Shown here one piece after another: positions 29,582-48,230 of a DNA stretch of 54,884 nt. Where the stretch lies: NCBI GenBank assembly GCA_017447185.1, contig JAFSOC010000033.1, positions 1-54,884 on the forward strand, given 5' to 3'. This DNA is from Clostridia bacterium. Lineage in GTDB: Bacteria; Bacillota; Clostridia; Christensenellales; Aristaeellaceae. How positions within the stretch are numbered: position 1 is the stretch's first letter; each line of letters begins with the position of its first letter. The translations under genes and the position numbers were made by a program. Below the pieces are notes generated by a model, which did not search any database, was not told the origin of the DNA, and saw only the letters and a program-made list of their open reading frames with translations.

Positions 29582-29852
29582 CTTTCCGTATCCCTTCCGC
29601 AATCGCCGCGATCATATTTTCCGCCTCTTCCAGTGCGCCCGCCGGATCCTCCAGCCGGATGGTCGCCTCCGGTTTACCCATCAGCCGGTCCAGCATGATT
29701 TCGTAGATCCTTACCTTCACCGCCGCCGGCGTGGCCGGCGCGTGCAGCGTGTTGATCATATCCTCGATGACTTCCGGCGCGGCTTCCTCCAGCCGTTTCC
29801 GGATCTGGAGAACGAGTTCCATTTTGTTGTTATTGCTGTTGTCCATTTCCAT
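29568..29852 (-). CDS. Probable terminase small subunit
   Basis: About 94 residues, acidic and helical, with VLQIRKRLEEAAPEVIEDM and VRIYEIMLDRLMGKPEATI segments. Small DNA-binding or oligomerising helical proteins in this position, overlapping both portal and terL, are typical small terminases. The start is uncertain: ATGs at 29870, 29852 and 29846 are all in frame, and 29852 has AAGGCGGGG directly before it. Confidence 0.65.
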   Translation of the reverse strand: MEMDNSNNNKMELVLQIRKRLEEAAPEVIEDMINTLHAPATPAAVKVRIYEIMLDRLMGKPEATIRLEDPAGALEEAENMIAAIAEGIRKDVKP

Positions 29853-31866: not shown

Positions 31867-32706
31867 TCATCCTTTCTCATTCGGACAGAGTTTTGCCCAG
31901 GTCAGAGGACCCACAATGCCATCAACTTTCAGTCCTTCCGCTTTCTGAAACGACTTCACGGCTGCCAGCGTCTGCTTGCCAAAGTCACCGTCCGCTCCCC
32001 ATTTCCCAAGGTCATAGCCTTTGGAAATGAGGATTGCCTGCATCTCCTTCACAGCCTCCCCCTTGCTGCCTTTCTTCAGCGTAGGCTTCGGCACCGGGAT
32101 GACCGGAACATCCGGAATCACAGATCCGTCATACAGGCCAACCGGAATGCCGAAATGCGTCCAGCTCTTTTTGCTGAGGTTCCCTGTGCAGACTTCTCCG
32201 GAGCAGTGGATAATCTTCCCTCCGCCGATGTGCATTCCGGTATGCTGCATCTTGTTGCCGCTTTGCTGGAATACACAGGCTACCAGGTTTTCCGGAAGAT
32301 CTTTCTTTTCTCCCTTTACCGCCCAGTTGGAATTATCTTTCCACTGGCTTGTAGCGCCTCCGCCCATGAGGGAAATCCCGACCTGCTTCAGCAGCCACCG
32401 GGTAAATCCCCGGCAGTCGAAGAAACGGGTCTTTCCACCCGGGTACCATTTGCAGCCGGAACAGGATCCCTTCGATCCGTTCAGCACCTGGCACTTCTTC
32501 ACAATCACTGCAGATTCCGCCTCTGGACAGGAGGATCGGTTCGCATAGCTCTTCCGGTTGTTCGGTGTACAGTACTGTCCGTAACCGCCCCACACATACG
32601 GCCATCCCATACAGGCTTCCGCTGCTTTGCAGATGATTTCTGCTTTGGAAAGCCCTTCCGCTTTCCACTGGGCGATCAGGCTATCCACCTCAGTGTATGT
32701 CTTCAT
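31867..32706 (-). CDS. Endolysin: NlpC/P60-like peptidase plus peptidoglycan-binding domain
   Basis: 279 residues. The N-terminal catalytic domain has MGWPYVWGGYGQYC, the catalytic cysteine in RFFDCRGFTRWLL and the histidine in MQHTGMHIGGGKIIHCS. After a proline linker (PVIPVPKPTL) a peptidoglycan-binding domain follows with GSKGEAVKEMQAILISKGY and DGDFGKQTLAAVKSFQ and DGIVGPLTW. It cleaves the cell-wall peptide at lysis. The ATG at 32706 keeps normal spacing to AGGGAGGG; an ATG at 32712 would be too close. Confidence 0.88.
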   Translation of the reverse strand: MKTYTEVDSLIAQWKAEGLSKAEIICKAAEACMGWPYVWGGYGQYCTPNNRKSYANRSSCPEAESAVIVKKCQVLNGSKGSCSGCKWYPGGKTRFFDCRGFTRWLLKQVGISLMGGGATSQWKDNSNWAVKGEKKDLPENLVACVFQQSGNKMQHTGMHIGGGKIIHCSGEVCTGNLSKKSWTHFGIPVGLYDGSVIPDVPVIPVPKPTLKKGSKGEAVKEMQAILISKGYDLGKWGADGDFGKQTLAAVKSFQKAEGLKVDGIVGPLTWAKLCPNEKG

Positions 32707-32821
32707 CTTCATCCCTCCCTAACTTTTCCAGTTCACGGTCTTCCAGAATGAAAACCGCAGCTACTAACGCTCCGAAAAGCGCCCCAAACAAAAAGGCCAT
32801 TACGGCCCAAAACCAGAGCAT
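32690..32821 (-). CDS. 43-residue single-span membrane protein
   Basis: One membrane helix (WFWAVMAFLFGALFGALV, then AAVFIL) is followed by a charged tail EDRELEKLGRDEDEDIH. AAAGGAG lies upstream of the ATG at 32821, and the 3' end overlaps the lysin start by 17 bases, implying translational coupling. Similar tiny proteins lie in this position in Clostridia prophages; a role in lysis timing is a guess. Confidence 0.7.
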   Translation of the reverse strand: MLWFWAVMAFLFGALFGALVAAVFILEDRELEKLGRDEDEDIH

Positions 32822-32836: not shown

Positions 32837-33247
32837 TTACACACTGATGGATTTCACTCCCATTGGGATTGGCAGCAGTTCCTTTGCAGGCATGGGCAAT
32901 CCCGGTGCATGAACATTCACTGTGCCATCACAATTGTCATTCAGTGTTTCTCCCGTCTCGAGATATTCCGACACCGTTGCATTCGTCCCGTCCCAGGTGT
33001 TTCTTTTCAGTTTCCGCAGCAGTACCGTCCGGTAGGTTGCATCTGACCAGCCAGCCTGCCGCGGAATCCCGAAGGATTCCCCGATGGCATCCAGCTGGAT
33101 GCCCACAGCCGATCCAACAGAAAACCCCGGCGCAATGTTCTTCGCCAGGGTGATCAGGTCCGTGGCCTGCCGCAGCACTGCTGCGGCCAGGGCCATGAAC
33201 TTTGGTTTCTCCTGTATATAACCAGGAAATAAGCTGAGATAATCCAT
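32837..33247 (-). CDS. Phage tail/baseplate protein (DUF2612-like)
   Basis: 136 residues. The segment VGSAVGIQLDAIGESFGIPR followed by SDATYRTVLLRKLKRNTWDG is characteristic of the baseplate proteins that follow gpJ in contractile phages of Clostridia. The ATG at 33247 has AGGAG upstream within the end of the preceding gene. It probably links the baseplate wedge to tail-tip parts. No separate tail fibre gene follows it. Confidence 0.7.
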   Translation of the reverse strand: MDYLSLFPGYIQEKPKFMALAAAVLRQATDLITLAKNIAPGFSVGSAVGIQLDAIGESFGIPRQAGWSDATYRTVLLRKLKRNTWDGTNATVSEYLETGETLNDNCDGTVNVHAPGLPMPAKELLPIPMGVKSISV

Positions 33248-33255
33248 ATTGCTCC

Positions 33256-34173
33256 TCATGAATTGATCTGTATCGTAATATTATCCGTCGAGTTGATGAT
33301 CCATTTTCCATTCCAGACAGAGTTCAGCTTCTCCCGTTCCTCGATCTGGGAAGTACTGGTGATGTTCAGGTCCGAAATGGCAAAGGTGGACGCCAAACTT
33401 CCAGCCGCTTGGTACAGCCTGCCATACAGCTGGGGCACATTCAGGTCTTCCCCGATATCCATTTCCGCGTTGACACAGTTCATGAGGTCTGTCCGGATTG
33501 CATTCTCAACCGCCGTCCTGTCGAAGCCGGTGTAGGCACGAAGAACAACATGAACAATCAGGAACTGCTGTACCGGCCGGGAGAACTTCACGGTGTGCTG
33601 ATTCCCCTGAGAATCTGTAACTGTTCGGCTCACGGATCCATATGTTCCGATGCCCGGTGGTTTCTTCGCCCAGATGGCGTTAGCGATCAGGCCGGCATTT
33701 CCGTTGTTGACATAGGCAGCAATATTATGTGCCGGAATCCCGTCCACTGTGCTGTTTTCATCATTCACGCGGATCAATATCTGGGTCACATTCGGGACTT
33801 TGCGGATCTCTGCTTCCATGGCATCCACTGTGCAGCATCCCAAGGAAGCCAAAGCCTTCTTCACCCTGGCCCGAGCTTCAGCGTCCGTCTCCCCCGGCAG
33901 CCGGGAAAGTCCATAGGTCGGCAGGAGCAAATCCAAGGCCTGCCCGGAAGCATATTCCGGATTCCGGCTGTTATACCCGGCCACCATGAAGGCAGATGCA
34001 TCGTCCAGGGCCTTTGCAAAAACGGATAGAAGCTGGTAATCCGGCACCGCCGGATTCAGTTCCGCGTCCAGACCGAAGATGGAACGGTAAGCGGAACACA
34101 GATCCTGCAGCCGGTCCTCATACGTTGGCATGTGAATACCAGAGGCATCAATATACGGTGGAAAATACGACAT
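33256..34173 (-). CDS. Baseplate wedge protein, gpJ family
   Basis: 305 residues. Pattern LSRLPGETDAEARARVKKAL (residues about 82-101) and VDAMEAEIRKVPNVTQILI, plus a C-terminal IYTDL-like ENAIRTDLMNCVNAEMDIGED segment, match the baseplate J/gp47 family that makes the contractile baseplate wedges. The start overlaps the gpW-like gene by 26 bases and has AGGAGGG upstream. Confidence 0.82.
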   Translation of the reverse strand: MSYFPPYIDASGIHMPTYEDRLQDLCSAYRSIFGLDAELNPAVPDYQLLSVFAKALDDASAFMVAGYNSRNPEYASGQALDLLLPTYGLSRLPGETDAEARARVKKALASLGCCTVDAMEAEIRKVPNVTQILIRVNDENSTVDGIPAHNIAAYVNNGNAGLIANAIWAKKPPGIGTYGSVSRTVTDSQGNQHTVKFSRPVQQFLIVHVVLRAYTGFDRTAVENAIRTDLMNCVNAEMDIGEDLNVPQLYGRLYQAAGSLASTFAISDLNITSTSQIEEREKLNSVWNGKWIINSTDNITIQINS

Positions 34174-34510
34174 TGGCTTTTCCCTCCTTGGTCAGCACAT
34201 CGCAGGAATAGGAGAATTCCCGACCAGCGATGGAGAAGTGTACATCTTCCACCTCCTGTACCCCGGAAGTTTCCCGGATGTAGGAAGTGATCATTGAAGC
34301 CAAAGCAGAGCCGGAGTCCTCAGTTAGTCGGGAAGTGTTCATCGCTTGCAGGATGGAAAATCCAAAGCCAGTATTCTCCCACCATTCTCCGGCCAGCAGC
34401 GAAAGCCGGTATTCCACCAGCCGGGCCACGGCTTCTGGGCCGGAAAGCAGGGCACGGGAAGACAGGACCGGAAGAATATCTCCAGCTGCATCTACAGGAC
34501 GCAGTATCAT
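34148..34510 (-). CDS. Baseplate protein, gp25/gpW-like (DUF2634-like)
   Basis: 120 residues, with the small wedge-protein pattern LSGPEAVARLVEYRLSLLAG and WWENTGFGFSI in the first half, and a C-terminal VQEVEDVHFSIAGREFSY strand. Such proteins join the tail tube end to the wedges. The start overlaps the preceding stop (ATGA). Confidence 0.75.
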   Translation of the reverse strand: MILRPVDAAGDILPVLSSRALLSGPEAVARLVEYRLSLLAGEWWENTGFGFSILQAMNTSRLTEDSGSALASMITSYIRETSGVQEVEDVHFSIAGREFSYSCDVLTKEGKANVVFSTVY

Positions 34511-34999: not shown

Positions 35000-35191
35000 A
35001 TGAAAGAAAAGAACCTGGCCAGAGCGCAGAAAAATACTGCCGCAACTGGCAAAGCCATGAACAATCTGCAGAAGATTGATGGGGCAAACGAACCGGACTT
35101 GGATGCAATGAGCAAAGTATCAGGCGGCTATCCTTTGTTTCGTTCTTTCCCTTCGTCTGAAGAAGAAAAGAAAAAGAGCAAACGTCCGTAA
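35000..35191 (+). CDS. Small double-glycine peptide in the prophage (63 residues)
   Basis: The ATG at 35000 follows AAAGGAG. Residues 32-43 read PDLDAMSKVSGG, matching the LSxxELxxVxGG leader end cut by C39 peptidases of bacteriocin exporters. The predicted core is short and basic (YPLFRSFPSSEEEKKKSKRP). It lies between two minus-strand baseplate genes and points the other way. An unusual feature is the extra lysine/asparagine-rich region before the leader motif. No exporter gene is in the window. It shares only the leader logic with the other three peptides. Confidence 0.65.
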   Translation: MKEKNLARAQKNTAATGKAMNNLQKIDGANEPDLDAMSKVSGGYPLFRSFPSSEEEKKKSKRP

Positions 35192-35210
35192 AAACTATAC
35201 ACAACGAATT

Positions 35211-35969
35211 TCACTGACGCAGCTGGATCACCAGCTGCGTTTTCCAGTCTTCGTAAGATGTATCAGCTTCCACCATCCGTTCCAGGATCAGGCCCTGCCA
35301 GTGTTCCCCGTCCGCTTCCAGCGTCATTTCTTCTCCCGGTTGGAATCCTGTCACACTTGTCGACAGGATCATTTTCTTTCCGCCGGCGGCAATCATTGGG
35401 GCGTCCGTCAGGTCGGTTTTAGTCAGGTGCAATGTTGGTTCCAGTGACTCCGCCGGAACGATGCACAGCCCCGCCGGTACCAGATAACCTTTTGCTCCGG
35501 CAGCCGTCAGCGCCATGGCAATGCAGTCCGCCGCCCGGCCGCAAAAAGCCTGGGCACGGCTGAATACCGGATCTGCTCCCGGGAATGACAGCAGCTGGAT
35601 CCCGGTTCCGGACGCATCCAGCATCAGCCGTACCGTTTCGGACACTGTCACTCCAGCCGAAACAGAAAGCGATATCTGTGTCTCCCACAGATCCAGGCCC
35701 AGGGAAAAAGCCACTGTAGTAATTGTTCCTTCCTGCACCGTTTCCCGAAATACATCCGACACCTTTCCGAACGCCAGGCAGGAATCATCCCGGTAAACCG
35801 AAAGTTCTTTCGTATTCCGTACCCGGAATACGTCCGCTTCCGAAAGATTCCAGCATTGCAGCAGGAATAAGGATGGAAACAATCCAATCTCTGTCTTTCC
35901 GGACAAATGAAAACGGCACTCGCCCGCAAAGGCTGTACCGTCAGCAAGGACTGTCAGTTTACGATCCAT
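35211..35969 (-). CDS. Phage baseplate hub-like protein (XkdQ-like)
   Basis: 252 residues starting at an ATG with GGAGGA. It is beta-rich throughout, with ADVFRVRNTKELSVYRDDS, GVTVSETVRLMLDASGTGI (the hub family's LysM-side helix) and a final LEADGEHWQGLILERMVEAD. It sits between spike and plug genes as hub proteins do. Its 5' side abuts repeat copy A (35985-36075). Confidence 0.65.
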   Translation of the reverse strand: MDRKLTVLADGTAFAGECRFHLSGKTEIGLFPSLFLLQCWNLSEADVFRVRNTKELSVYRDDSCLAFGKVSDVFRETVQEGTITTVAFSLGLDLWETQISLSVSAGVTVSETVRLMLDASGTGIQLLSFPGADPVFSRAQAFCGRAADCIAMALTAAGAKGYLVPAGLCIVPAESLEPTLHLTKTDLTDAPMIAAGGKKMILSTSVTGFQPGEEMTLEADGEHWQGLILERMVEADTSYEDWKTQLVIQLRQ

Positions 35970-35984
35970 ATGTGTCCTCCGCAT

Positions 35985-36075
35985 CCTCAATCGGCGCAAC
36001 TGCCCACTGGGCAGCTTGCTTGTTTCGGATGACCTCACAATCGACGAAATTTCTGACACTGTCAGTCGTCGATTG
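35985..36075 (+). repeat. 91-bp palindromic repeat, copy A
   Basis: Hairpin 1 is CTGCCC-ACT-GGGCAG (36000-36014). Hairpin 2 has outer arms 36038-36047 and 36066-36075 and an inner stem CTGAC-ACT-GTCAG (36053-36065). Between them is the conserved GCTTGTTTCGGATGACCTCA. Copies B (44298-44388) and C (47470-47561) keep these blocks while their stems change together. This copy is intergenic but supplies the last codons and stop of the plug gene. Confidence 0.85.
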
Positions 36076-36418
36076 TTCGCCCGAATAATATCCTGAACTC
36101 CGTCAGGTTCCCTTCCGCCGGATCCGGTGTAGAGGGATCGTCCGTATTCCGGATCACAAAAAGTGATCCCAACCCCTGGCCGTTCCGCAGATGCCGGAAC
36201 GGCAGAAAAAGATCATTCACCTGGCCGTAGGAACAGATCAGCGGGATTTGACTGATCAGCAACACTCCGCTGGAATTATCCCACACAGAAATCACCCAAA
36301 TCTCCGGAGCAGTCAGATACCGAATCTCTATTCGGGCATGAAAAGCAACACCGTCAATCTGCATATCCAGTGTGAAAACCTGCCTGGGATCTTCAGTTAG
36401 CGGCAGTATCCAATACAT
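36062..36418 (-). CDS. Baseplate plug protein (Pam3 gp18-like)
   Basis: 118 residues of beta-rich sequence: FTLDMQIDGVAFHARIEIRY, APEIWVISVWDNSSGVLL, and GQGLGSLFVIRNTDD. This matches from memory the plug proteins of contractile phages. The last codons and stop come from repeat copy A. Start follows GGAGTGAG. Confidence 0.68.
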   Translation of the reverse strand: MYWILPLTEDPRQVFTLDMQIDGVAFHARIEIRYLTAPEIWVISVWDNSSGVLLISQIPLICSYGQVNDLFLPFRHLRNGQGLGSLFVIRNTDDPSTPDPAEGNLTEFRILFGRTIDD

Positions 36419-36419
36419 A

Positions 36420-36929
36420 TCATCTCACTCCTGCCCGATCCAGCAGATTCTGCAGCGAAGTTCCGCTGACCGTCTGCACGGTTCCGGTGCTGCCGGTATG
36501 CACCGCCGTGCTGGCATTATCTGCAGTCTTTTCCTGCACTGCCGGCGGGACATACTGCACAAAAGTCAACGTGCCTTTCCAACCGGACTGAGAACTCTCG
36601 TCTACAGTGGCCACGAATTCTGAAAGCAGCATCGCGCTGTACGTCTTTGCCGGTGTGATCACATTGCACAGTGTCCGGGTTCTCTTAATGGCTTCCATCG
36701 CCTGCAGCATCTGATCTGACCAGCCGATCACATGCCCCACATCTGTTTCGATGATGGAAAGAATAATCTTATCCGGCTTATTTCTGGCTCCATTCACGTA
36801 ATCCGATCCGGAAGCGGATTCAGATTCCGTCTGGATCTTCAGGGAGAATTCATGCTGGATGGATATAACTCCGGAGAAGGTATAAACATACCCATAAGAT
36901 GGGAGCTGAACAGATACAGAGCTCGTCAT
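36420..36929 (-). CDS. Phage baseplate/tail protein, Dit-like N-terminal domain
   Basis: 169 residues. The N-terminal two thirds (VYTFSGVISIQHEFSLKIQ, GHVIGWSDQMLQAMEAIKR and NVITPAKTYSAMLLSEFVA) match the small baseplate proteins between tape measure and hub in contractile phages. The last 40 residues are a threonine/serine-rich tail. GGAGG lies across the preceding stop, so translation is coupled to the tape measure gene. Confidence 0.65.
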   Translation of the reverse strand: MTSSVSVQLPSYGYVYTFSGVISIQHEFSLKIQTESESASGSDYVNGARNKPDKIILSIIETDVGHVIGWSDQMLQAMEAIKRTRTLCNVITPAKTYSAMLLSEFVATVDESSQSGWKGTLTFVQYVPPAVQEKTADNASTAVHTGSTGTVQTVSGTSLQNLLDRAGVR

Positions 36930-36930
36930 C

Positions 36931-37626
36931 TTATTCGCCTCCCAATGTCCTCAGCAAATACTGTTCCGCCACGTTATAGACAGATCTTCCCACCGCTTCC
37001 GGATTGCTCCCGGCAGCAGTAACGTTGATGGATATCGGTGCCTGGATGGTCTTTGAGGAATTGTTCGTCACCGGAGCATTTACAGAAGAGACATTCAGCA
37101 GCGATTCCAGGCTGCTCACTGCAGCCTTTGCTCCAGTTTGTGCCACACTTGCCGTTGCAGCACTGGCCGCACTGCCGACAGCGCCGGCTGCATTACCTGT
37201 TCCCCCGGATGTTTCGATCTGTACTTTCAGAGGTAACACCGTGGAGGCAAACATACTCTGCAAAGATGACAGCGCATTTCTTCCGGCTGAAACTACTGCA
37301 GAACCGTCTGCCGTCAGTTTGAACGCCTTGGTTGCTTCCTTCAGGAAAGCGGCCAGTTCTTTATTCGCCTTTGTGAAATCCAGGGAAATGGGGATATTCA
37401 TCCCGGCAGGTTCTTCTGTTACACTGGCTTTACCGGAGTTCAGTCCCGGCAGGGAGATTTCATTGAGATCCCGGAAGAAAGCTCGTACAGATTCCCTGGC
37501 CCGGTCAAATGCCGCCGCCAGTTTTTCCGCCAGCGTCCGGTTCTCTTCCAGCGCGGCCTGCAGCCGCGCCACGCCGGATTCGTCAATCTCGACACCAAAG
37601 GAAGCAAGAAACTCCTGATCAGCCAT
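36931..37626 (-). CDS. Short tail tape measure protein
   Basis: 231 residues. The N-terminal helix FLASFGVEIDESGVARLQAA with NRTLAEKLAAAFDRARESVR is typical of tape measures, followed by an alanine-rich middle and a C-terminal beta segment IQAPISINVTAAGSNPEAVG. Position directly after the chaperone region and before baseplate genes is right. It is far shorter than usual (tails of this class need 500-1,500 residues), so the tail would be very short or the protein degraded. Confidence 0.65.
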   Translation of the reverse strand: MADQEFLASFGVEIDESGVARLQAALEENRTLAEKLAAAFDRARESVRAFFRDLNEISLPGLNSGKASVTEEPAGMNIPISLDFTKANKELAAFLKEATKAFKLTADGSAVVSAGRNALSSLQSMFASTVLPLKVQIETSGGTGNAAGAVGSAASAATASVAQTGAKAAVSSLESLLNVSSVNAPVTNNSSKTIQAPISINVTAAGSNPEAVGRSVYNVAEQYLLRTLGGE

Positions 37627-37864
37627 GAAAACCCTCCCGGAAAGTCAAAAAGTTTGCTTTTCTTAGCCTGCTGTACAGTTTCTTCCGGTTCACCCCCGCC
37701 GCTTCTCCGGATCCTCCCGTATCATCCAAAGAATCCTTACACGAACCGGAAAAACGTCAAATACCGCCGTTTCCGGGCTCTCCGTATATACAGGTGAAAG
37801 GAGCAATAAAGCTCCCGAATAAAAATAAAAGCAAGGCTACAAGCCAGAAAGAGAGGAACAAACA

Positions 37865-38074
37865 ATGAATAACAATATGATGGAACTCACAATAGACCAG
37901 ATGGAACGGGCGAACGGCGGATTCAGCCTTAACGGGGCTCTGAAAGGATTCTGCAAGGGCGCCGTCATCGGCGGGGTCCTCGGAGCCATGACCGGCACAC
38001 CGCAGGGCGCGCTGATCGGAACCGTCGGCGGAGCCACTGTAGGCACGATTGTCGGCGGCATCATGGAGGATTAA
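37865..38074 (+). CDS. Bacteriocin-like double-glycine peptide A (69 residues)
   Basis: Leader MELTIDQMERANGG (to residue 19) ends in the double glycine expected for C39-peptidase export. The core is glycine-rich and hydrophobic with repeated GxxxG spacings (FCKGAVIGGVLGAMTG, GTVGGATVGTIVGG), as in two-peptide class IIb bacteriocins. AGAGAGGAA lies upstream of the ATG. Peptide B follows four bases after its stop. The pair is plus-strand between the minus-strand tape measure and tail chaperone genes. Confidence 0.72.
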   Translation: MNNNMMELTIDQMERANGGFSLNGALKGFCKGAVIGGVLGAMTGTPQGALIGTVGGATVGTIVGGIMED

Positions 38075-38078
38075 GCAT

Positions 38079-38258
38079 ATGAATACGAATATGAAAGAAC
38101 TGAACCTGGACGAAATGGAACAGGTAAACGGCGGCTTCATCACCCTCCTTTGCGCGCTCGGAGTGGTTGCTGTCGGCACCGGTCTGGCATGCATCGCCGC
38201 ATACGCCACAAAAGACTCCGATAAACAAATGAAAAGATGCCCAAAGCCTGGATTCTAA
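38079..38258 (+). CDS. Bacteriocin-like double-glycine peptide B (59 residues)
   Basis: Leader MKELNLDEMEQVNGG is nearly the same as that of peptide A. The core starts with a 24-residue membrane segment (FITLLCALGVVAVGTGLACI) and ends with a basic tail (KDSDKQMKRCPKPGF) containing three cysteines in all. GGAGGA lies in the end of the upstream gene. Two peptides in tandem with the same leader point to a two-component bacteriocin or signal; no immunity gene is obvious. A hairpin terminator follows. Confidence 0.72.
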   Translation: MNTNMKELNLDEMEQVNGGFITLLCALGVVAVGTGLACIAAYATKDSDKQMKRCPKPGF

Positions 38259-38271
38259 TCCTTTATTCTCC

Positions 38272-38834
38272 TCATCCTTGCCGCGCAGTATCCTCTGCGC
38301 GGTTTTCGTTTTCCCTCTGCACCCGGATCAGTTCCGTGATATCCAGCAGATCATCCAGAGTATAAGTTCCGTCCCAGAGTTCATGCTGTTTCCACATTCC
38401 GGTACTTACCGGTAAGAACAAGAATTCATCCACATTCGGGCATTCGGCAATCAGGAACCCGGGATCATGGGCAGGGAGGTTGAGCCTCCCTCGCCGAAAA
38501 AACCTTCCAGCGTCCAGACGACTTCCTCCATCGTCAGCTTCAGGCAGATCCCCGGCTCATACTGCAGCTCCGGGTAGCTCCACTCTCCCTGGGTCATCAC
38601 CGGATACCACCCGGCCGGAAGCTGCACTTCGATATGTTGCAGGCAGGTGGTCATGAGGGACCGGAGATCCGCATCCGACAGTGCGGAGAGCAGATCCGCC
38701 GCTGCTCCTCCTTCCGGCAGGCGGGTCATCAGCCGCAGCAGGGTCACCCCTGAAAAGGCATCCAGCTTCGTCAGCCGAAAATCCATGTTCTTTCCATTCA
38801 GCGGAACGGAAAGGGTTTTTGTGATTTCTCTCAT
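38272..38834 (-). CDS. Tail assembly chaperone with -1 frameshift extension (G/GT type)
   Basis: The zero-frame product is 127 residues (stop at 38451) with FRLTKLDAFSGVTLLRLMTR and a C-terminal LTMEEVVWTLEGFFGEGG. A slippery T TTT TTC at codons F112-F113 followed by a GC stem-loop allows a -1 shift into a frame that stays open to 38272, giving about 187 residues with DPGFLIAECPNVDEFLFLP and TYTLDDLLDITELI. Such G/GT pairs, between tube and tape measure genes, are a general rule of long-tailed phages. The zero frame is XkdN-like. The extension has no ribosome site of its own. Confidence 0.75.
38281..38302 (+). terminator. Terminator of the GG-peptide pair
   Basis: CCGCGCAG (38281-38288) pairs with 38295-38302 across TATCCT and is followed by TTTTCGTTTT. 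It overlaps the end of the minus-strand frameshifted chaperone frame. Confidence 0.75.
38473..38502 (-). promoter_or_regulatory. Predicted -1 ribosomal frameshift signal
   Basis: Slippery heptamer TTTTTTC occupies minus-strand 38502-38496 in the right phase. After a four-base spacer follows a seven-bp stem (38485-38491 with 38473-38479) and a five-base loop. Shifting by -1 joins two open frames of the tail chaperone gene. Confidence 0.78.
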
Positions 38835-38837
38835 TTT

Positions 38838-39269
38838 TTACTGCTCCGTAATGGTCGTAGCCAGCAGGGTGATGATCCGGTTTGTAGCTGTCCGGTCAAA
38901 GACCCGGTCCGGCATCTTCTGTATTGTTACGCCGGTGCAGGTTACCGTGAAGCCACCAGCAAGATCCTGTATGGTCAGGACTCCGAGTGCGATCCGGGAT
39001 GGATCGCACTTTTTCTGCCAACCGATCCAGTGCACGAAGAATTCGTCCAGCTGTCCGTTCTGCGGGATCTCCATCGTTATGGTTCCGTTGGTGGATGTCA
39101 GTTTGTTTACGACCACATATCCATCCGCCGTCATAGTATGGCTTGTCAGATCCCCGGCGGAAGAGATGGTAATCTTTCCATGCCCGCACTGGTGTATATG
39201 CGCCCTGCCGACATCCGGATGACCCAGTTCCACCTTACAGTCTGTGATGGAATACACGTTATAGGCCAT
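38838..39269 (-). CDS. Phage tail tube protein (DUF3277-like)
   Basis: 143 residues. The beta-rich pattern MAYNVYSITDCKVELGHPD, HGKITISSAGDLTSHTMTAD, DEFFVHWIGWQK and DRVFDRTATNRIITLLAT matches the DUF3277 tube family. It forms the inner tube of the contractile tail and sits right after the sheath gene, as expected. A clean AGGAGG precedes the start. Confidence 0.82.
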   Translation of the reverse strand: MAYNVYSITDCKVELGHPDVGRAHIHQCGHGKITISSAGDLTSHTMTADGYVVVNKLTSTNGTITMEIPQNGQLDEFFVHWIGWQKKCDPSRIALGVLTIQDLAGGFTVTCTGVTIQKMPDRVFDRTATNRIITLLATTITEQ

Positions 39270-39282
39270 ATTTCTGCCTCCT

Positions 39283-40398
39283 TTATACGCTTACATTCAC
39301 CGAGATGACCACAGATTCCAGGCTCCCTGCCAACGTGAGCGCTGCCTGGATCGGCATTGCTTTGTGCGCGTCCCGGTCCGCATCCGACTGGTTATCATAG
39401 CTGTCCGCCCAGAGCAGGAAGCCGTTCTCGATATAGTCCCCGACAGAGATCCTGCCCACTGCGGAACCGCGCCACGCAGCCGTGGCCAGGATGCCGCGGG
39501 CGGTATAACCCGCGAGGATCGAAGAGAATGCATTGATAAACTGTGCAGATGCATCATCCGTCTGGGGCAGTTTATCCGGATTATCCGCCAGGAGGGCCAC
39601 TGCTGCGTTCTGCAGGTCCTCCGCGATCATATCGAGATAAAGAACTTCGTCATACCGATATCCGGAAGGCGTGCTTCCCTTCTCCAGCAGGGTATGCGTT
39701 TTTCCTCTTGTCACATACACATTCCCGCCCAGGGCTTCAATGGCATCCACCTGCGCCTGGGTCAGATCACTCGGCTGCATACCGCCCACCGGCTTATAAC
39801 ACAGGGCGAAGGACGATGCGGCATGCGCCGCCTGCAGACCCATGGCCGTACCCATCACGGCACCGGCATCCGATACTGCGGTGGAGAGCGTAGCGATCAC
39901 CCGCCGGGAGGAAGCGCTGTGCAGCTGGTCCAGCAGGGAGCCGGAAGCCACTGCGGCAGATGCGGTCCCGGTAATCGCATGGAAAAGCATCAGAGGCTTA
40001 TCCAGCCCGGCAATGTGGGTATTCAATGCCAGGACCTCCGCGTCCGTCCGGGTATCCGCCAGGGCGATGCCGTAGAAATCCTCCGTCTTCTCCAGGAGGG
40101 CGTCCAGCGCCTGTACTGGGGATTCCGAATTTGGGTAGCACGAAACCAGCAGTCTTCCGGGCACCGGCGAGGCTGCAAAGTATTTCTGCGCTGCCTTGTA
40201 AGGCTCCGAGGAGGCCGGGAAGCCGTCCGCGATCATACCGGCAGCCGCCTCCGCGGAGTTGGCATACGACCGGAGGCGCTTGGCTGCGGTATAGGAAGCA
40301 TCCTTCACCAGCAGCGCGCCGGTATCAAAGGACGTAGGCTGTGAGGCGGACCGGACTACATTCACGGCCACCCGGGCAATCGTATTGATGGAAAGCAT
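39283..40398 (-). CDS. Contractile tail sheath protein (DUF3383-like)
   Basis: 371 residues. The N-terminal segment FDTGALLVKDASYTAAKRLR and SAEAAAGMIADGFPASSEPYKAAQKYF, plus DFYGIALADTRTDAEVLAL in the middle, are typical of the DUF3383 sheath-like family. A sheath implies a myovirus-type, contracting tail. AAAGGAG precedes the ATG. A 199-base gap separates it from the PSD-like cargo gene that starts divergently. Confidence 0.82.
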   Translation of the reverse strand: MLSINTIARVAVNVVRSASQPTSFDTGALLVKDASYTAAKRLRSYANSAEAAAGMIADGFPASSEPYKAAQKYFAASPVPGRLLVSCYPNSESPVQALDALLEKTEDFYGIALADTRTDAEVLALNTHIAGLDKPLMLFHAITGTASAAVASGSLLDQLHSASSRRVIATLSTAVSDAGAVMGTAMGLQAAHAASSFALCYKPVGGMQPSDLTQAQVDAIEALGGNVYVTRGKTHTLLEKGSTPSGYRYDEVLYLDMIAEDLQNAAVALLADNPDKLPQTDDASAQFINAFSSILAGYTARGILATAAWRGSAVGRISVGDYIENGFLLWADSYDNQSDADRDAHKAMPIQAALTLAGSLESVVISVNVSV

Positions 40399-40434
40399 GC
40401 GGAATTTCTCCTTTCAGCAGATTGAATGGAATGA

Positions 40435-40469
40435 TATAATGCAGGTGAAGTGAGTTTATTTTTGAAATT
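40435..40469 (+). promoter_or_regulatory. Cargo promoter and leader of the PSD-like gene
   Basis: TATAAT at 40435-40440 is followed by a 20-base leader element (40450-40469, starting GTGAGTTTAT) that recurs with two mismatches at 43299-43318 before the NUDIX gene. Both cargo genes thus carry related start regions. Confidence 0.6.
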
Positions 40470-40597
40470 GTTGGCTAAGACAATCGGGATTTGAGTAGAG
40501 GATAAAATATAAACCGGCAGTACTGGTTTTATCTGTTGTCTGTATCCTTGTTGTATTTCGAAAGAATTTTGCATTAAAGCTTAAGGAGGTAATTCAA

Positions 40598-41923
40598 TTG
40601 AATCTTATCAGGAAAATACTGTGTTTGTTGATATTTGTCTGCTTGTTTGCAGGAGGCGTTGCAGAGCAAAATGCAGATGGTTCTGTTCCTGCCAGGACGC
40701 CTGTAATTTCTGAACAGTTTAATAGTTCCTATGCTTCAGAATCATTTAAGAATATGCTGAAGCAGCATCCTGATATTCAGAAATTGATCGAAAAATCGAT
40801 TGCACAGGCCGCGGAGATTAATCCGGACCGGGAGACAAACCCGGTTCAGTCACTTGATGAAATGTATGGTTTCCTTAACTACACCGTAACATGTATGCCA
40901 TGGAACATTATGCCAGAGGAACGATACGGCAATTTTGCCACAAAATGTGATCAGAGTATCCTCTATGTTTACTGGCTTTTGGACCAGCCCCTGCAGGAAC
41001 TGGAAAACAGAGAACTGTTTTATCCTTCAGTGGAATATCTGGAACCGGTATACCGGTGGCTGACGGAATATAATAATACCTGGAGGGATTTTCTGGATTC
41101 TGAAGAATCGTGGAAGCAGGAATATCTTGATATGCTTTTGCAGGATCCTTCCTGGAATCTGGATAAAGGCTGGTATGAGTCTCCGGAAAACTGGCACTCT
41201 TTCAATGAATTTTTCTCCAGAAAGCTTTCCGGAAATGCGGCACGGCCCATTGCGTCACCGCAGGATGATACGGTAGTGGTTTCACCGGCAGATTCACTTC
41301 CACAGGGTCTCTGGAAGATTGACGATAAGGGACTGTTTCATGCTGATCCTATTCTGAGAGAAGACGGCGTTACGATTAAGGACTCCACTTATATTTCTGT
41401 CGAGCAGCTCCTGGGAGAAGACGGTGCTGAATATGCAGCCCTGTTTCACGATGGGTATCTGACTCATACCTATCTGAACTATGACGATTATCACAGGTAT
41501 CATTTTCCTGTTTCCGGCACGGTTGAGGCTGTGTACACGGTCCCGTATGCCAATGCGGTAGGCGGTGTTGTCTATTGGGATGATCAGCGCGGGTTATATG
41601 TTCTGGAATCGAATTCCCTTTCCTGGCAGAGTATAGAGACAAGGGGATGCGTCCTGATCAATACCGAATACGGAATGGTTGCTGTGATCCCGGTTGGAAT
41701 GGGGCAGGTTTCAAGCGTTAATTTCCTGGACAATGTAAAGCCTGGAGCAAAAGTAACAAAGGGAGATGAGCTGGGATATTTCCTGTTTGGCGGTTCAGAC
41801 TGTGTAATGTTGTTTGAAGGCCGTTCAGGATTCCAGCTTACCGTTCCGGAAGGTGGTACAGGAAGCTACTCTGCTGGTTACGCCCATGTATTTTGCGGGG
41901 AGGAATATGGCCGGTTTCAATAA
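40598..41923 (+). CDS. Secreted phosphatidylserine decarboxylase-like protein (cargo)
   Basis: 441 residues, starting at TTG with AAGGAGG eight bases upstream. A signal peptide (MNLIRKILCLLIFVCLF, cleavage near VAEQN) precedes a 200-residue N-terminal region of unknown fold. The C-terminal half carries the decarboxylase triad: VVVSPADSLPQG (Asp 232), DYHRYHFPVSGTV (His 299 or 302) and FGGSDCVMLF, whose serine 400 would be the self-cleavage site that makes the pyruvoyl group (usual motif GST). The base composition is lower in GC than the phage genes around it, and it runs opposite to them. An exported enzyme of this class could modify host lipids. Confidence 0.78.
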   Translation: MNLIRKILCLLIFVCLFAGGVAEQNADGSVPARTPVISEQFNSSYASESFKNMLKQHPDIQKLIEKSIAQAAEINPDRETNPVQSLDEMYGFLNYTVTCMPWNIMPEERYGNFATKCDQSILYVYWLLDQPLQELENRELFYPSVEYLEPVYRWLTEYNNTWRDFLDSEESWKQEYLDMLLQDPSWNLDKGWYESPENWHSFNEFFSRKLSGNAARPIASPQDDTVVVSPADSLPQGLWKIDDKGLFHADPILREDGVTIKDSTYISVEQLLGEDGAEYAALFHDGYLTHTYLNYDDYHRYHFPVSGTVEAVYTVPYANAVGGVVYWDDQRGLYVLESNSLSWQSIETRGCVLINTEYGMVAVIPVGMGQVSSVNFLDNVKPGAKVTKGDELGYFLFGGSDCVMLFEGRSGFQLTVPEGGTGSYSAGYAHVFCGEEYGRFQ

Positions 41924-42010
41924 CGCTGGCTCAAGTGCCTGAGCACTATCTGTTGAGTGACAAATTCCCGGGATACCTGTTGGCAAGAAATTTCGGAAGC
42001 TTATTGCTTC

Positions 42011-42556
42011 TCACCCCCGCCGGATCACCACCGCCGGGGCGGACGCAACCGCACCCCTTCTTGCGGGGTGCGTTTCTTTTTCCTCCGCCCGCAGGAAAAC
42101 CGTTAGATCCGCCCGCTGCCGCCAGAGGGAGCCCTCCGGCTCATGCAGCAGCTGCGGCTCCGGCGGATCCGGCACCGGATAGATCCCCGCCTTCCGTAGG
42201 ATGCTCCGGGGATAGCCGGAGCCGTCCAGATACAGAAAAGCCCGGATCTTCCGGGCGTTTTCCAATGCGTGGGGACCATAGCAGACCACCACAAGCCGCC
42301 ATGCCGAGAAAGAGGAAACCGACGGCGTATGAGATGCTGATCCCGTATTCGTCGTATTGTACATCACCGGGGGCTCCGGCGCGGAATCCGGCTCGATGGA
42401 GTAATAGATCACATCCGTATCCCGAGGCGGCCGCGGCGCATTCTCCGGTTCCTGGTATGCCTCCCGGATCAGGACCGCCGCCGCAGCGGAGGAAGACTGC
42501 AGCCCGAAGCAGGCGCAGATGGCGGAAAACAGGATTGTATTCATCTGCTGATTCAT
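42011..42556 (-). CDS. Phage neck/tail-completion protein (LIC_12616-like)
   Basis: 181 residues. It starts with MNTILFSAICACFGLQSS and contains VYYSIEPDSAPEPP-like text (here DVIYYSIEPDSAPEPP) and WRLVVVCYGPHALENARKIR, which match a neck protein family found before the sheath gene in this phage type. Its 3' end overlaps a plus-strand terminator. AAAAGGA lies before the ATG. Confidence 0.68.
   Translation of the reverse strand: MNQQMNTILFSAICACFGLQSSSAAAAVLIREAYQEPENAPRPPRDTDVIYYSIEPDSAPEPPVMYNTTNTGSASHTPSVSSFSAWRLVVVCYGPHALENARKIRAFLYLDGSGYPRSILRKAGIYPVPDPPEPQLLHEPEGSLWRQRADLTVFLRAEEKETHPARRGAVASAPAVVIRRG
42050..42072 (+). terminator. Terminator of the PSD-like gene
   Basis: CGCACCCC (42050-42057) and GGGGTGCG (42065-42072) form a stem followed by TTTCTTTTTCC. 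It sits inside the 3' end of the minus-strand neck gene. Confidence 0.7.
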
Positions 42557-42558
42557 GA

Positions 42559-42594
42559 TATAATCCTTTTCAGAAAGAAAAGTGAAAAGAGGAT
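42559..42594 (+). promoter_or_regulatory. Cargo promoter of the GG-LysM gene
   Basis: TATAAT (42559-42564) with TTGTAT 18 bases upstream, followed by CCTTTTCAG, closely matches the NUDIX promoter TATAATCCTTTTCGG (43276-43290). Confidence 0.55.
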
Positions 42595-42863
42595 AAAAAC
42601 ATGCGCGAACTCAGTCCGGACGAAATGGACAAGGTAGCCGGCGGCAAAAGACATTTTAAACCTTTTCCGGACAAGCCAGGCTGGATCCAGCACAAAGTTT
42701 CCCCGACCGATACCCTGATCAGGATTGCCGACATGTACGATATCAAAGACTGGCGCTTCATCCTGAAATGGAATCCGCACATCGATGACCACACCTGCCT
42801 GATCTGCACCGGCGAATACCTCTGGATAAAGAAGTAATCCTTCAAAAAAAGTGAAAAGAGGAT
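42578..42863. repeat. 17-bp direct repeats flanking the GG-LysM gene
   Basis: AAAAGTGAAAAGAGGAT occurs at 42578-42594 (including the gene's ribosome site) and again at 42847-42863, just after its stop. This may be a footprint of cassette insertion. Confidence 0.7.
42601..42837 (+). CDS. Double-glycine leader fused to a LysM domain (78 residues)
   Basis: The leader MRELSPDEMDKVAGG resembles those of the other GG peptides in this prophage. After residue 15 comes a basic linker, and residues about 30-78 form a LysM fold: IQHKVSPTDTLIRIADMYDI, then FILKWNPHIDDHTCLICTGE and YLWIKK, with the usual T-L-x-x-I-A and N-P-x-I spacing. LysM binds N-acetylglucosamine polymers such as peptidoglycan. I know no described GG-leader LysM peptide. 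AAGAGGA lies before the ATG. The gene sits opposite to and between two head-tail connector genes. Confidence 0.75.
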   Translation: MRELSPDEMDKVAGGKRHFKPFPDKPGWIQHKVSPTDTLIRIADMYDIKDWRFILKWNPHIDDHTCLICTGEYLWIKK

Positions 42864-42871
42864 GAAATAAT

Positions 42872-42897
42872 CCCGGTCCGCGGAAGCGGGCTTTTTT
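42872..42897 (+). terminator. Weak terminator after the GG-LysM gene
   Basis: A short CCCG/CGGG stem (42872-42875 and 42887-42890) with an inner TCCGCGGA palindrome is followed by six T. The stem is weak. Confidence 0.4.
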
Positions 42898-43259
42898 CAT
42901 TCCCGCATTTTGACAGCAAGGCACTGATAATACCCGAACATCTCCCAGGACCGCACCCGGACCACCCGCCAGGTTCCCCCGTTCCAGAGGATCCGGTCCG
43001 GCACGGTGTAAGTCGCTCCCCCGTCGTTTTCTCCCAGGCTCAGAGCGAAGTCCGTATAGATGGCGATGAACTCTTCGTTCCGCTCCTCTTCCGGCAGCAG
43101 CTGGATCATCTCGGGCGTGCCGGGATGGATGCATCCGGATGCCGGCAACGTCTGCGTTGCCGGAACGGAAGTACCGTTCTGCCGGCGGTAGGTGGTCCGC
43201 TGAACCGAAAAGGACGTAAAGCCCAGATCCGGGTCGGTAATCGCTTCTGTAATTTGCAT
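42897..43259 (-). CDS. Phage head-tail connector or neck protein
   Basis: 120 residues, beta-rich, with GFTSFSVQRTTYRRQNGTS, EEFIAIYTDFALSLGENDGG and RILWNGGTWRVVRVRSWEMF. This is the pattern of the head-tail joining proteins between DUF4054 and neck genes in related prophages. A perfect 9-bp hairpin (43142-43150/43155-43163) lies inside the coding sequence. GAGGTTTCT precedes the ATG. Confidence 0.6.
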   Translation of the reverse strand: MQITEAITDPDLGFTSFSVQRTTYRRQNGTSVPATQTLPASGCIHPGTPEMIQLLPEEERNEEFIAIYTDFALSLGENDGGATYTVPDRILWNGGTWRVVRVRSWEMFGYYQCLAVKMRE

Positions 43260-43340: not shown

Positions 43341-43826
43341 ATGAAGCTGAGGAATATGACGGGCATCTATCTATCCTGTAACGGGCAGATGCTTTTACTT
43401 TATCGTCAGGGAGGAAGGGTCGTTTCGAATCAATGGATCGCCTCTGCCAGCGGACATTTCGAAAAAGAAGAACTCAATGATCCCAAAGCCTGTGTTCTCC
43501 GTGAACTCCGGGAAGAACTTCGTCTCGACGAAGATGATCTGGCCGATATGAAAATGCGATACATCGGATTGCGGAATGTGAACGGTGAGATCAGGCAGAA
43601 TTATTATTTCTTTGCCAATCTGAAACCCGAACATTATGAGCTTTTCATTTCAAACGAAGGCAAATGCAAATGGGTGGATTATGCAGATATCATGAATTAT
43701 GATATGCCGCTGACAGCCAAATATGTGATGGATCATTATTTACGGACAGGGCAATATACTGACTGTCTATATAGTGCAGTTGCTGACGGACAAGGTTTTC
43801 AGTTTATCGTTTTAGCAGAAACCTGA
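43341..43826 (+). CDS. NUDIX hydrolase (cargo)
   Basis: 161 residues; the ATG at 43341 has AAGGAG nine bases upstream. The NUDIX box is seen as ASGHFEKEELNDPKACVLRE followed by LREELRLDE, giving the metal-binding glutamates of an enzyme that cuts nucleoside diphosphates linked to another group. The substrate is unknown. The gene is plus-strand between minus-strand connector genes, has its own promoter and terminator, and is poorer in GC than its neighbours, so it is probably a phage-borne fitness gene. Confidence 0.85.
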   Translation: MKLRNMTGIYLSCNGQMLLLYRQGGRVVSNQWIASASGHFEKEELNDPKACVLRELREELRLDEDDLADMKMRYIGLRNVNGEIRQNYYFFANLKPEHYELFISNEGKCKWVDYADIMNYDMPLTAKYVMDHYLRTGQYTDCLYSAVADGQGFQFIVLAET

Positions 43827-43891: not shown

Positions 43892-44488
43892 TCATTCCTC
43901 TATTTCATAATCAAAGGCATTGTACAAAGCCCCTGTGTCAAACAGGGGCTTATCAAATCCCTTACCGGGAATATAGACGCCCTTCTTAGCCTTCCGGTTG
44001 TAGATCCAGCCGCCGTTGACGGTCGCCGGGCTGTTGGGCGGCGGGATATGGGAATCGATATAGGCCCGGATACCGTCCGCTCCGGCCTGGCCGGCAGCCT
44101 CCATTGCGGGCCGGGGATCTTCCCCTTCCCACGCGGCCCGGACAGCATCCTTCATGGCCTCCGCCATCTGCTGCCGGGTCTCCGGCCGTCGGAGCGCCGG
44201 AGTGATCACCGGCCGGGATGGAATATGCATCAGGGGTGAGCCGCGCTCCTGCACGGCGAGGATAAAATGAAGCCGGCCTCCCGCTTTTCCGGGCGAACCT
44301 CCGGCGACCGCCTGTGGCGGAAGTTTCGCCGAAGGTGAGGTCATCCGAAACAAGCGATCTCCCCGGTGGGGAGTCGCGCCGATTGAGGATGCGGGAAGGC
44401 CGACTTTCACCGTTGTGTTCTTCAGTTTTTGCAGGGCCCGGAGACGTTTCTCCAGCATATCCGGGTCATTATGAATAGTGATTCTCAT
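43892..44488 (-). CDS. Phage tail-completion / connector protein with in-frame repeat insert
   Basis: 198 residues, starting at an ATG that overlaps the upstream stop. It reads like an HK97 gp10-type or minor capsid-tail joining protein: MLEKRLRALQKLKNTTVKVG, HFILAVQERGSPLMHIPSRP, EAMKDAVRAAWEGEDPRPAM and a C-terminal DTGALYNAFDYEIEE. Between the VKVG strand and the FILAVQE segment lie about 32 residues encoded by repeat copy B (44298-44388), which homologues should lack. The reading frame stays open through it. Confidence 0.68.
   Translation of the reverse strand: MRITIHNDPDMLEKRLRALQKLKNTTVKVGLPASSIGATPHRGDRLFRMTSPSAKLPPQAVAGGSPGKAGGRLHFILAVQERGSPLMHIPSRPVITPALRRPETRQQMAEAMKDAVRAAWEGEDPRPAMEAAGQAGADGIRAYIDSHIPPPNSPATVNGGWIYNRKAKKGVYIPGKGFDKPLFDTGALYNAFDYEIEE
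44298..44388 (-). repeat. 91-bp palindromic repeat, copy B (in coding sequence)
   Basis: Orientation opposite to copies A and C. Hairpin 1 arms 44359-44364/44368-44373; hairpin 2 outer arms 44298-44307/44326-44335 (one G-U pair on the minus strand) and inner stem 44308-44312/44316-44320. The minus strand keeps AATCGGCGC and GCTTGTTTCGGATGACCTCA. Confidence 0.85.
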
Positions 44489-44898
44489 GGAATATACTTC
44501 GCAAACCCGTGCATCCGGATCAGGCTGAGCAGTTGCAGACCATAGATGGTCTGCTTCAGGTCCGCCAGACCGGTACTCACGGAAGCCGAGACGGAGGAGG
44601 AAGTATTGTAGGATACGGAAACCTCCCCTACCTTTTTCGAGGCGACTTCCTGCATGGCGCCCCTGCCTGCGGAAGCGATAACCGCCGGAGACGGTGTTAC
44701 TCCTTCCGGCAGGCAAACTGCGGCATACAGCGTCAGCTTATGCGCCACATACAACCGCCGGGCCTCGTCCGTATCCTCATCGTAATCAAAAAAGCGGGCG
44801 TTGGCCTGCCGGAGATATTCCGTAAGAACAACGCCCTGGGAAAAGGAAGAAAACTGGGGATAGAAGGCCAGAAAGGCGGATGGAGTCAGATCCATCAC
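44485..44898 (-). CDS. Head-tail connector protein (DUF4054-like)
   Basis: 137 residues. LTPSAFLAFYPQFSSFSQGV, YDEDTDEARRLYVAHKLTLY and VSVSYNTSSSVSASVSTGLA match the DUF4054 connector family. It overlaps both neighbours by four bases, so it is translationally coupled to them. Confidence 0.8.
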   Translation of the reverse strand: MMDLTPSAFLAFYPQFSSFSQGVVLTEYLRQANARFFDYDEDTDEARRLYVAHKLTLYAAVCLPEGVTPSPAVIASAGRGAMQEVASKKVGEVSVSYNTSSSVSASVSTGLADLKQTIYGLQLLSLIRMHGFAKYIP

Positions 44899-45240: not shown

Positions 45241-46203
45241 TCAGATTCCGTCCATGTACCTTACGGTTGTCGGATACAGGAAACGCACTTCGGAGAACTG
45301 CGCAATATACGGAATCTTGATCCGCATCTGCGAGTACTCCGTCTCCATCCGGCGCAGGGGCTGTGTCAGATTGAAGCAGATCCGGTCCTCCTGGTTCATG
45401 TAGACCACCATGCGGTCCGTGGAACCGGAACCGACGCCGCTGCACCACTTCAGGGGTGCAATCGTCAGTTCCCTGCGCTGCTGGGCCACAATGTTGTTTT
45501 CCAGCACGTAGGTCAGGATGCTCTTGCCGGAGTCGTCGGAAACCTTCCGGGTTACCAGCTGACCGAACTGTTCCGTTGGAATCAGGATATGGTTCGGCAG
45601 GGCGTCGGAAGAGCAGTCGTTCTCCTCCCACACAGCGGTGAGCGCCGCATTGATGTCCATCAGGATTTCATCCGCGGTCTTATCCTTCCACTGGGTGCTG
45701 GTGTTGCCGGCATTCATCGCGGCGCTGGACCGGATGATGGTCGCGTTGTTGCACAGGCCGGAGGAAGATACCTTGCTGAATCCGACGTAGACATTCCGGT
45801 CCATCACCTTGTCGCAGTGCAGATGGATGCCCTTGTTCAGGAAGGTCATCGGGTCGCGGCCGATGTTCATCATCTTTTCCTTCTCCGTGATGGAGACGGA
45901 CATGTATTCCGCGAAGTTGAAGGTCCGGGCCACCTGCTTGCTGAAGTCCGCCTGGATGACAGGGATATCATTGGCAGGATCGGTGTAGAGGTTGTCATCC
46001 TCCAGGCCGGTGGATGCATAGCTCACATCAATCGTGGCGATGGACTCAATCAGGCCTCCGCCGGTAACGACCGGCATATCACGGGGCCAGTCCGTACTGG
46101 TCAGGGGTTCCAGGATTTTCTCATCGACTTTCTCCAGTTCCTTCATGAGGAAGACATAGGAGTCACTCGCCGCCATGCGGCGGATCGAAGGGGCATGAAT
46201 CAT
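45241..46203 (-). CDS. Major capsid protein (DUF2184-like)
   Basis: 320 residues. SIRRMAASDSYVFLMKELEK opens the protein. RTFNFAEYMSVSITEKEKMM, FLNKGIHLHCDKVMDRNVYV and ENDCSSDALPNHILIPTEQF are the family hallmarks, with a C-terminal PYIAQFSEVRFLYPTTVRY. It makes the capsid shell. The ATG at 46203 has AAAGGAG upstream; the longer frame includes non-coding leader. Confidence 0.82.
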   Translation of the reverse strand: MIHAPSIRRMAASDSYVFLMKELEKVDEKILEPLTSTDWPRDMPVVTGGGLIESIATIDVSYASTGLEDDNLYTDPANDIPVIQADFSKQVARTFNFAEYMSVSITEKEKMMNIGRDPMTFLNKGIHLHCDKVMDRNVYVGFSKVSSSGLCNNATIIRSSAAMNAGNTSTQWKDKTADEILMDINAALTAVWEENDCSSDALPNHILIPTEQFGQLVTRKVSDDSGKSILTYVLENNIVAQQRRELTIAPLKWCSGVGSGSTDRMVVYMNQEDRICFNLTQPLRRMETEYSQMRIKIPYIAQFSEVRFLYPTTVRYMDGI

Positions 46204-48202: not shown

Positions 48203-48230
48203 TCCGTTCACCTCGATCAAAAATGGGCAT

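Follow-up and report, generated by a model that had tools for sequence, protein, structure and literature searches.

Reversed double-glycine leader genes between the virion genes of an apparently grounded prophage in a rumen Clostridia genome, and a candidate host exporter for their products

Sublancin carries a double-glycine (GG) leader and leaves the cell through a C39-peptidase exporter of its own, SunT. Sublancin 168 of the Bacillus subtilis prophage SPbeta is described as a prophage-encoded antimicrobial peptide that is secreted by the host cell (PMC6391423). Two further systems are described, namely exporters of the NHLM type, whose NHLP/Nif11 precursors may sit far from the exporter (Haft et al., 2010, PMC2887384), and defective or “grounded” prophages, which act as insertion hotspots and carry morons (PMC6379469). 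Prophage-borne secreted antimicrobials, hotspot prophages with morons and exporters with distant precursors are known already. Here we analyze a stretch of 54,884 nucleotides (the window), which is the entire contig JAFSOC010000033.1 (C32) of the 2.91-Mb draft genome of a rumen Clostridia bacterium (G000), and in which a cluster of contractile-tail phage genes (27.6–48.3 kb), with its recognized phage genes on the minus strand, has plus-strand genes in its gaps, including four open reading frames (ORFs), GG1 to GG4, that were proposed to encode GG-leader peptides. Below, C numbers denote contigs of this genome, G001 and higher denote genomes of the same genus, and L numbers denote fetched loci.

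Like SPbeta, the window has peptide genes within prophage-derived DNA and would depend on the host cell for secretion. In SPbeta, sunA lies together with an immunity gene, whereas the window holds several precursors, scattered and reversed between virion genes, with the exporter on another contig instead of alongside and with no evident immunity gene. The adjacent and glycine-rich GG2 and GG3 recall class IIb bacteriocins (TIGR03949, lactobin A/cerein 7B), for which GG3 exceeds the curated cut-off (26.9 bits versus 21.5), whereas GG2 stays below the Bacteriocin_IIc cut-off and no exporter gene lies alongside the pair. As in NHLM systems, the host exporter scores above the cut-offs of both ABC families, while the window leaders, unlike those of NHLP/Nif11 precursors, are of the short class II type (~15–20 amino acids, aa). 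The single foreign genes between virion genes are what is seen in morons and grounded prophages; unlike known morons, the cargo considered here consists of putatively exported GG peptides, lies nearly always on the opposite strand and recurs across the genus. LysM proteins are usually secreted by means of a Sec signal, in contrast to the LysM domain found here, which follows a GG leader. In the open-access literature, seen mostly as titles and the beginnings of abstracts, no paper was found on GG-leader LysM proteins or on reversed GG cargo in virion gene junctions; one on lanthipeptide loci and mobile elements (PMC12715929) proved of no help here.

The initial annotation described the four GG-leader ORFs as plus-strand genes lying among virion genes of the minus strand, and their places and strand are confirmed. 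The leader pattern, combined with the ORF limits, matched exactly these four ORFs in the cluster and none in the remaining window, and four matches were reached in 0 of 500 shuffles (mean 0.08, maximum 2). A leave-out leader profile, made from 20 leaders without the four ORFs (18 from relatives and two from C17 of the same genome), gave 35.3 bits for GG3, 32.9 for GG4, 28.4 for GG2 and 8.1 for GG1. A further profile, for which host leaders from outside the clusters were the sole training set (the host-only profile), also recovered GG2, GG3 and GG4, so that the cluster and host leaders form one family. At the level of sequence, we regard GG2, GG3 and GG4 as established, genuine double-glycine leader genes. 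GG2 (37865–38074, plus strand) encodes 69 aa, of which a 19-aa GG leader is followed by a 50-aa, class IIb-bacteriocin-like mature part with a glycine zipper (PF05433, 29.9 bits, cut-off 24.2). GG3 (38079–38258, plus strand) starts 4 bp after GG2 and encodes 59 aa, with a 19-aa GG leader and a hydrophobic mature part. GG4 (42601–42837, plus strand) encodes 78 aa, with a 15-aa GG leader and a 63-aa mature part that is a predicted LysM domain. Intrinsic-terminator-like hairpins, each no more than a consensus match, follow GG2-GG3 (38280–38303, plus strand) and GG4 (42875–42892, plus strand), and such sites number 15 in the region versus 8.9 in shuffles. In three pairs compared for GG2/GG3, nonsynonymous divergence (dN) is 0.02–0.04 in the leader and 0.45–0.66 in the mature part.

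The claim of four leaders thus stands for three of them, and the place of GG1 (35000–35191, plus strand) in the set is doubtful. GG1 encodes 63 aa, with a 43-aa N-terminal part ending DLDAMSKVSGG and a 20-aa hydrophilic remainder. We judge it as likely as not that GG1 is an ORF which happens by chance to contain a GG, in which case the set is one of three genes. Pointing to a chance ORF are its 8.1 bits when left out of the profile, its absence among the host-only-profile matches at E ≤ 0.001, and a homolog search of the 45 genus genomes that, apart from GG1, gave nothing above the level of chance (next best E 0.18); the 21 bits obtained with the first leader profile mean little, since GG1 sat in the training set. 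Pointing the other way are a good ribosome-binding site, a position in the 338 bases that separate two phage genes, on the same strand as the other cargo, and the shuffles, which never reached four pattern matches.

The initial annotation would have been refuted by a genome with no C39 exporter and by leaders not conserved in related prophages, and neither was observed: the genome has one such exporter, of NHLM-like type, and related clusters have leaders too, both at the corresponding junction and elsewhere. Peptidase_C39 is matched once in the genome, on C7, by the N-terminal part of a protein of 726 aa. This protein scores above the cut-off of the NHLM ABC1 model TIGR03796 (912 bits, cut-off 853), and the next gene in tandem above that of the NHLM ABC2 model TIGR03797 (736 bits, cut-off 709). 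A gene for a sigma factor of the extracytoplasmic function type adjoins the exporter on the other strand, and a 67-aa ORF between the two (L002 691–894, minus strand) has a leader-like sequence, ELNMDEMEWVNAAG, with no GG. Across the genus, C39 is found in 35 of 45 genomes (12 of the 13 high-quality ones), and 28 of these 35 also have leader matches.

Judged by these profiles, the cluster leaders are a subset of a host-wide family and are not phage-specific, which replaces the earlier picture of a peptide set peculiar to the prophage. At E up to 10 the first leader profile has 35 matches in the genome, of which 24 are at E ≤ 0.01; at the latter threshold the host-only profile has 30, and 23 of the 29 listed lie outside the virion clusters on C32 and C17. 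The mature parts behind similar leaders include glycine-zipper peptides and LysM domains as well as SH3-like and zinc-ribbon-like ones (the latter two by eye), and a few members (e.g., L082, L106) have longer leaders that by eye resemble Nif11. Of 120 genomes sampled from the taxonomic family, 17, belonging to 7 of 50 genera, had a match at E ≤ 0.001. On C30, an isolated baseplate fragment (58% identical), which is one more remnant of virion genes, has a leader gene (58733–58786; L098, L153) ~0.9 kb away.

Several leaders of the genome stand before a LysM domain. GG4 itself scores just below the Pfam LysM cut-off (19.3 bits versus 20.9), and all nine GG-LysM proteins put to Pfam, seven of them from this genome, match LysM (PF01476) at E ≤ 0.01, with homologs of GG4 reaching E 9.9e-11. 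Two further loci of the genome look LysM-like by eye, and among the 30 own-genome loci nine look LysM-like by eye, eight of these outside both virion clusters. A profile of the nine GG-LysM proteins matches LytE, Ecp6, SafA and other LysM chains in the PDB. The structural model of GG4 (mean pLDDT 82) has the predicted LysM order beta-alpha-alpha-beta, with strands at 28–32 and 73–77 and helices at 39–45 and 52–57, and the top Foldseek matches to this model are LysM domains, with probability up to 1.00 and weak E-values (0.05 and worse).

Sheath protein matches are present in 31 of the 45 genus genomes, including 12 of the 13 high-quality ones, and in many of the fetched clusters the virion genes are spaced by single opposite-strand genes. 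The description of the GG peptides as opposite-strand cargo holds for their strand and place; they are one cargo class among many, which in relatives include acetyltransferases, regulators, SH3 and HD proteins, an HU-type DNA-binding gene and others. In five genomes (L059–L062, L071), the HU-type gene stands in reverse orientation with a virion gene on either side. GG genes are among the cargo in L035, L036/L089, L042, L069, L082–L084, L086 and L087, and G038 (L069) has eight within one 20-kb stretch. The junction between the gene at the tape-measure position and the adjacent small gene holds a leader peptide in the window, C17, G038, G001, G007, G008 and G031; in the last four genomes it is a GA form, which in G001, G007 and G031 is the sole leader match at E ≤ 0.01 in the genome. 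This junction, the site of GG2-GG3 in the window, is thereby occupied by a leader peptide in three cluster lineages, with homologs of GG3 at the same junction in C17 (L086) and G038 (L069) and a homolog of GG2 in C17. A relative of GG4 lies at a different junction in G029, so the cargo is not tied to one place.

The association with virion clusters is seen genus-wide among the matches listed (150 of 161 for the first profile and 150 of 158 for the host-only profile). An enrichment obtained with the first profile (37 of 150 listed within 5 kb of a sheath match) was set aside, since training leaders came from virion loci and the result is partly circular, and the host-only profile was used. With the latter, 28 of the 150 listed leaders have a sheath match no more than 5 kb away, where 1.2 at most would be expected, and 27 of the 28 are on the strand opposite to the sheath. 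When the own genome and two very short or weak sheath matches are left out, 121 listed matches remain; 20 of these are no more than 5 kb from a sheath match, against an expectation of 0.9 at most, and 19 of the 20 are opposite. At 12 kb the count is 24 of 121 (at most 1.7 expected), 21 of them opposite; the GG genes of L074 and L075, which share the strand of the virion genes and lie past the last baseplate gene located, are counted as same-strand at this distance. As some matches share ancestry (G001, G007, G031 and one G008 cluster have one inherited peptide), Poisson significance would be overstated and we rely on effect size. For cargo of all kinds, a strict start filter gives 88 opposite-strand and 48 same-strand ORFs in 187 gaps, a weaker bias than that of the GG genes, in a count where same-strand ORFs may include unrecognized virion genes, some loci overlap or share a genome, one opposite-strand ORF is counted in L073–L081 and some gap borders may be shifted. 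In C17 (L086 8672–11444), two N-terminal sheath fragments (residues 1–123 and 1–101) flank a 635-aa reverse cargo ORF, and sheath ends are duplicated in L067 and L094 too, a hint at a route of cargo insertion.

The clusters of G001, G002, G007, G017, G031 and G038 share gene order and some neighbors, and it is within this clade that vertical inheritance of the cluster is supported; the window is outside that support, as its flanking genes gave one partial match (the 49683–53291 protein) in 20 fetched flank stretches of other clusters. As regards mobility of the window cluster, no match to PF00589 (tyrosine integrase) or PF00239 (serine recombinase) was found on C32. Likewise, the nearest such match is at least 300 kb from the cluster in G001, G002, G020 and G031 (1–2 contigs each), and none is on the sheath-bearing contigs of G032, G038 and G043. 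The genome has a second, broken copy of the cluster on C17, with the sheath as fragments only. Compared with L033, the window sheath has dN 0.145 and a synonymous divergence (dS) of 1.98, and dN/dS is ~0.07 for the sheath, ~0.13 for the tube-position gene and ~0.19 for the capsid gene, and with values this low the three genes look selected. The cluster looks like a grounded but maintained prophage of virion and lysis genes, and not an ordinary temperate phage.

We now put forward an explanation, which we favor with slightly better than even confidence, in which the GG genes are moron-like cargo of this grounded virion cluster whose products are exported by the NHLM-like C39 system of the host; from the sequences we infer expression, cleavage, export and activities. 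The gene junctions of the cluster would be sites at which the landing of single opposite-strand genes (morons) is tolerated or favored. The GG genes would be transcribed in the lysogen from their own strand, with the hairpins after GG3 and GG4 ending transcription, and the C39-peptidase ABC exporter encoded on the other contig would recognize the leader, cut after the GG and secrete the mature part. We propose that GG2 and GG3 would act as a pair of glycine-rich, membrane-active peptides, in the manner of a class IIb two-peptide bacteriocin, against competitors that are close relatives, and that the released LysM domain of GG4 would bind the cell wall outside the cell. The opposite orientation might prevent promoters of the cargo from activating virion genes, although this is an idea only.

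Several results weigh against this explanation or parts of it. The HlyD-type partner expected of an NHLM system fails TIGR03794 by far (18.9 bits, cut-off 156.2), the weakly HlyD-like gene being a short membrane protein that precedes the two ABC genes. The pairing of exporter and leaders is incomplete: 7 of the 35 genomes with C39 have no leader match, five of the ten without C39 still have leader matches (G011, G015, G024, G039 and G040, which are 57–80% complete), and G002, G020, G028 and G044 have the sheath and no leader match at E ≤ 0.01. A promoter scan gave no match upstream of the GG genes. As to the bacteriocin role, GG2 reaches 20.2 bits against the Bacteriocin_IIc cut-off of 27.1, and no immunity gene is evident next to GG2-GG3, the other plus-strand ORFs in that gap being of only 42 and 47 aa, with no comparison made with immunity families. 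For GG4, two pairs give dN of 0.34–0.36 in the leader and 0.32–0.39 in the mature part, with no contrast between the two. GG3 and GG4 have no match among annotated phages, nor has GG3 in viral contigs; a LysM alignment scan of viral contigs gave nothing useful. Finally, as regards grounding, a 248-aa frame on C17 (43958–44533, L086 ~13959–14534), on the opposite strand and adjoining the last virion gene, matches PF00589 (74 bits), so an integrase may once have been part of this remnant; serine recombinases are present in two IMG/VR relatives whose sheaths are 80% identical, so mobile forms of the cluster may exist or have existed.

The clearest competitor, which we consider distinctly less probable, is that the cluster is a decaying prophage that neutrally collects any host gene, the GG genes being common in the host and having no tie to the phage. 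It would account for the 23 of 29 listed own-genome leader matches outside both virion clusters, for the many other cargo types at the junctions of relatives and for the fragmentary sheath of C17, and the grounded-prophage hotspot idea behind it is published (PMC6379469). Such debris would be expected on both strands, whereas 19 of the 20 listed matches are opposite to the sheath; among the matches listed, GG genes are more than 20 times as frequent in the neighborhood of sheath genes as expected, and the sheath, tube-position and capsid genes look selected, with the dN/dS ratios of ~0.07, 0.13 and 0.19 given above.

A tie to the phage could also take the form of service to it, the peptides using the host exporter to bring about superinfection exclusion at the cell surface or, for the LysM protein, to prime the wall for lysis. 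LysM domains bind wall material, GG4 has a predicted LysM fold, and location within the cluster and the shared junction would fit; since eight of the nine LysM-like GG proteins identified by eye lie outside the virion clusters, their function appears not to be phage-tied, and we think this reading improbable. Streptococcal pheromones use GG leaders, and by this precedent the peptides might be signals sensed by neighbors. The mature parts of GG2 (50 aa with a glycine zipper) and GG4 (a folded domain of 63 aa) are unlike short pheromones, and a signaling role seems very improbable indeed. We retain moron-like, host-exported cargo as the preferred explanation.

The remaining genes of the cluster comprise protease, capsid, connection, sheath, tube-position, chaperone, tape-measure-position, baseplate, lysin-like, portal and terminase genes, all on the minus strand. 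From the low-coordinate end these are the terminase large subunit (28319–29602, phrog_38, 4.9e-66), the portal (29830–31269, phrog_146, 2.4e-106), an endolysin-like protein (31867–32715, named by eye from its ORF), three baseplate genes (32837–33259, 33256–34173 and 34148–34510) and a phage gene with PF18352 (34507–34872), these four by PHROG/Pfam, a hub-like gene (35211–35969, weak PHROG match, E 0.0037), and two virion genes (36062–36418 and 36420–36929, PHROG). The portal and terminase (28319–31269) lie downstream of the lysin-like gene, the portal of relatives being before the protease, and few of the fetched stretches showed a terminase. The 231-aa gene at 36931–37626 is assigned to the tape-measure position by its place only, with homologs in relatives and with no match in PHROG and Pfam searches; 231 aa would imply a very short tail, and the matching ORFs of several relatives are of ~240–310 aa. 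It is followed, across GG2-GG3, by a small gene of unknown function (38272–38433, phrog_4364), the tail assembly chaperone (38451–38834, PHROG), the tube-position gene (38838–39269, a virion structural protein in PHROG) and the sheath (39283–40398, PHROG).

Further along, on the same strand, lie a function-unknown gene (42011–42556, phrog_1973), a head protein (42897–43259), a neck or tail-completion gene (43892–44500) and a virion structural gene (44485–44898), the last three by PHROG, the putative major capsid protein (45241–46203, by position and by conservation, with orthologs 73–77% identical in relatives) and the head maturation protease (46814–48271; phrog_530, 2.6e-54 for the ORF 46814–48340, with orthologs in relatives). 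The plus-strand gaps hold, in addition to the four GG ORFs, a phosphatidylserine-decarboxylase-like gene (40598–41923, PF02666, 133 bits), with a start that is signal-peptide-like by eye and a second, 43% identical copy elsewhere in the genome (L155), and a NUDIX gene (43341–43826, PF00293, 35.8 bits). A 105-bp repeat has six copies in the genome, three in the window cluster (35979–36083, 44290–44394 and 47464–47567) and one in the C17 remnant, the other copies being 80–85% identical to the first.

The essence of our proposal is that it connects the export of GG-leader peptides with phage-derived gene clusters, which are normally separate subjects of study. If it is correct, phage-derived clusters would be a favored site for gaining GG genes, and one exporter would serve dozens of scattered small proteins, many of them folded domains such as LysM rather than toxins. 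The strand rule, whereby the cargo is nearly always opposite to the virion genes, offers a simple way to find similar cargo elsewhere. In a wider version, which we raise as a speculation and think rather unlikely, the cluster would be a cassette platform in most species of the genus, any of its gene junctions being able to receive single opposite-strand genes, with GG proteins as preferred cargo, and through it the substrate list of one exporter would be spread and renewed. The LysM members would then not be bacteriocins but wall-binding proteins that make up a new class of C39 substrates. Were this true, and were the clusters still to make particles, these particles could carry cassettes between cells.

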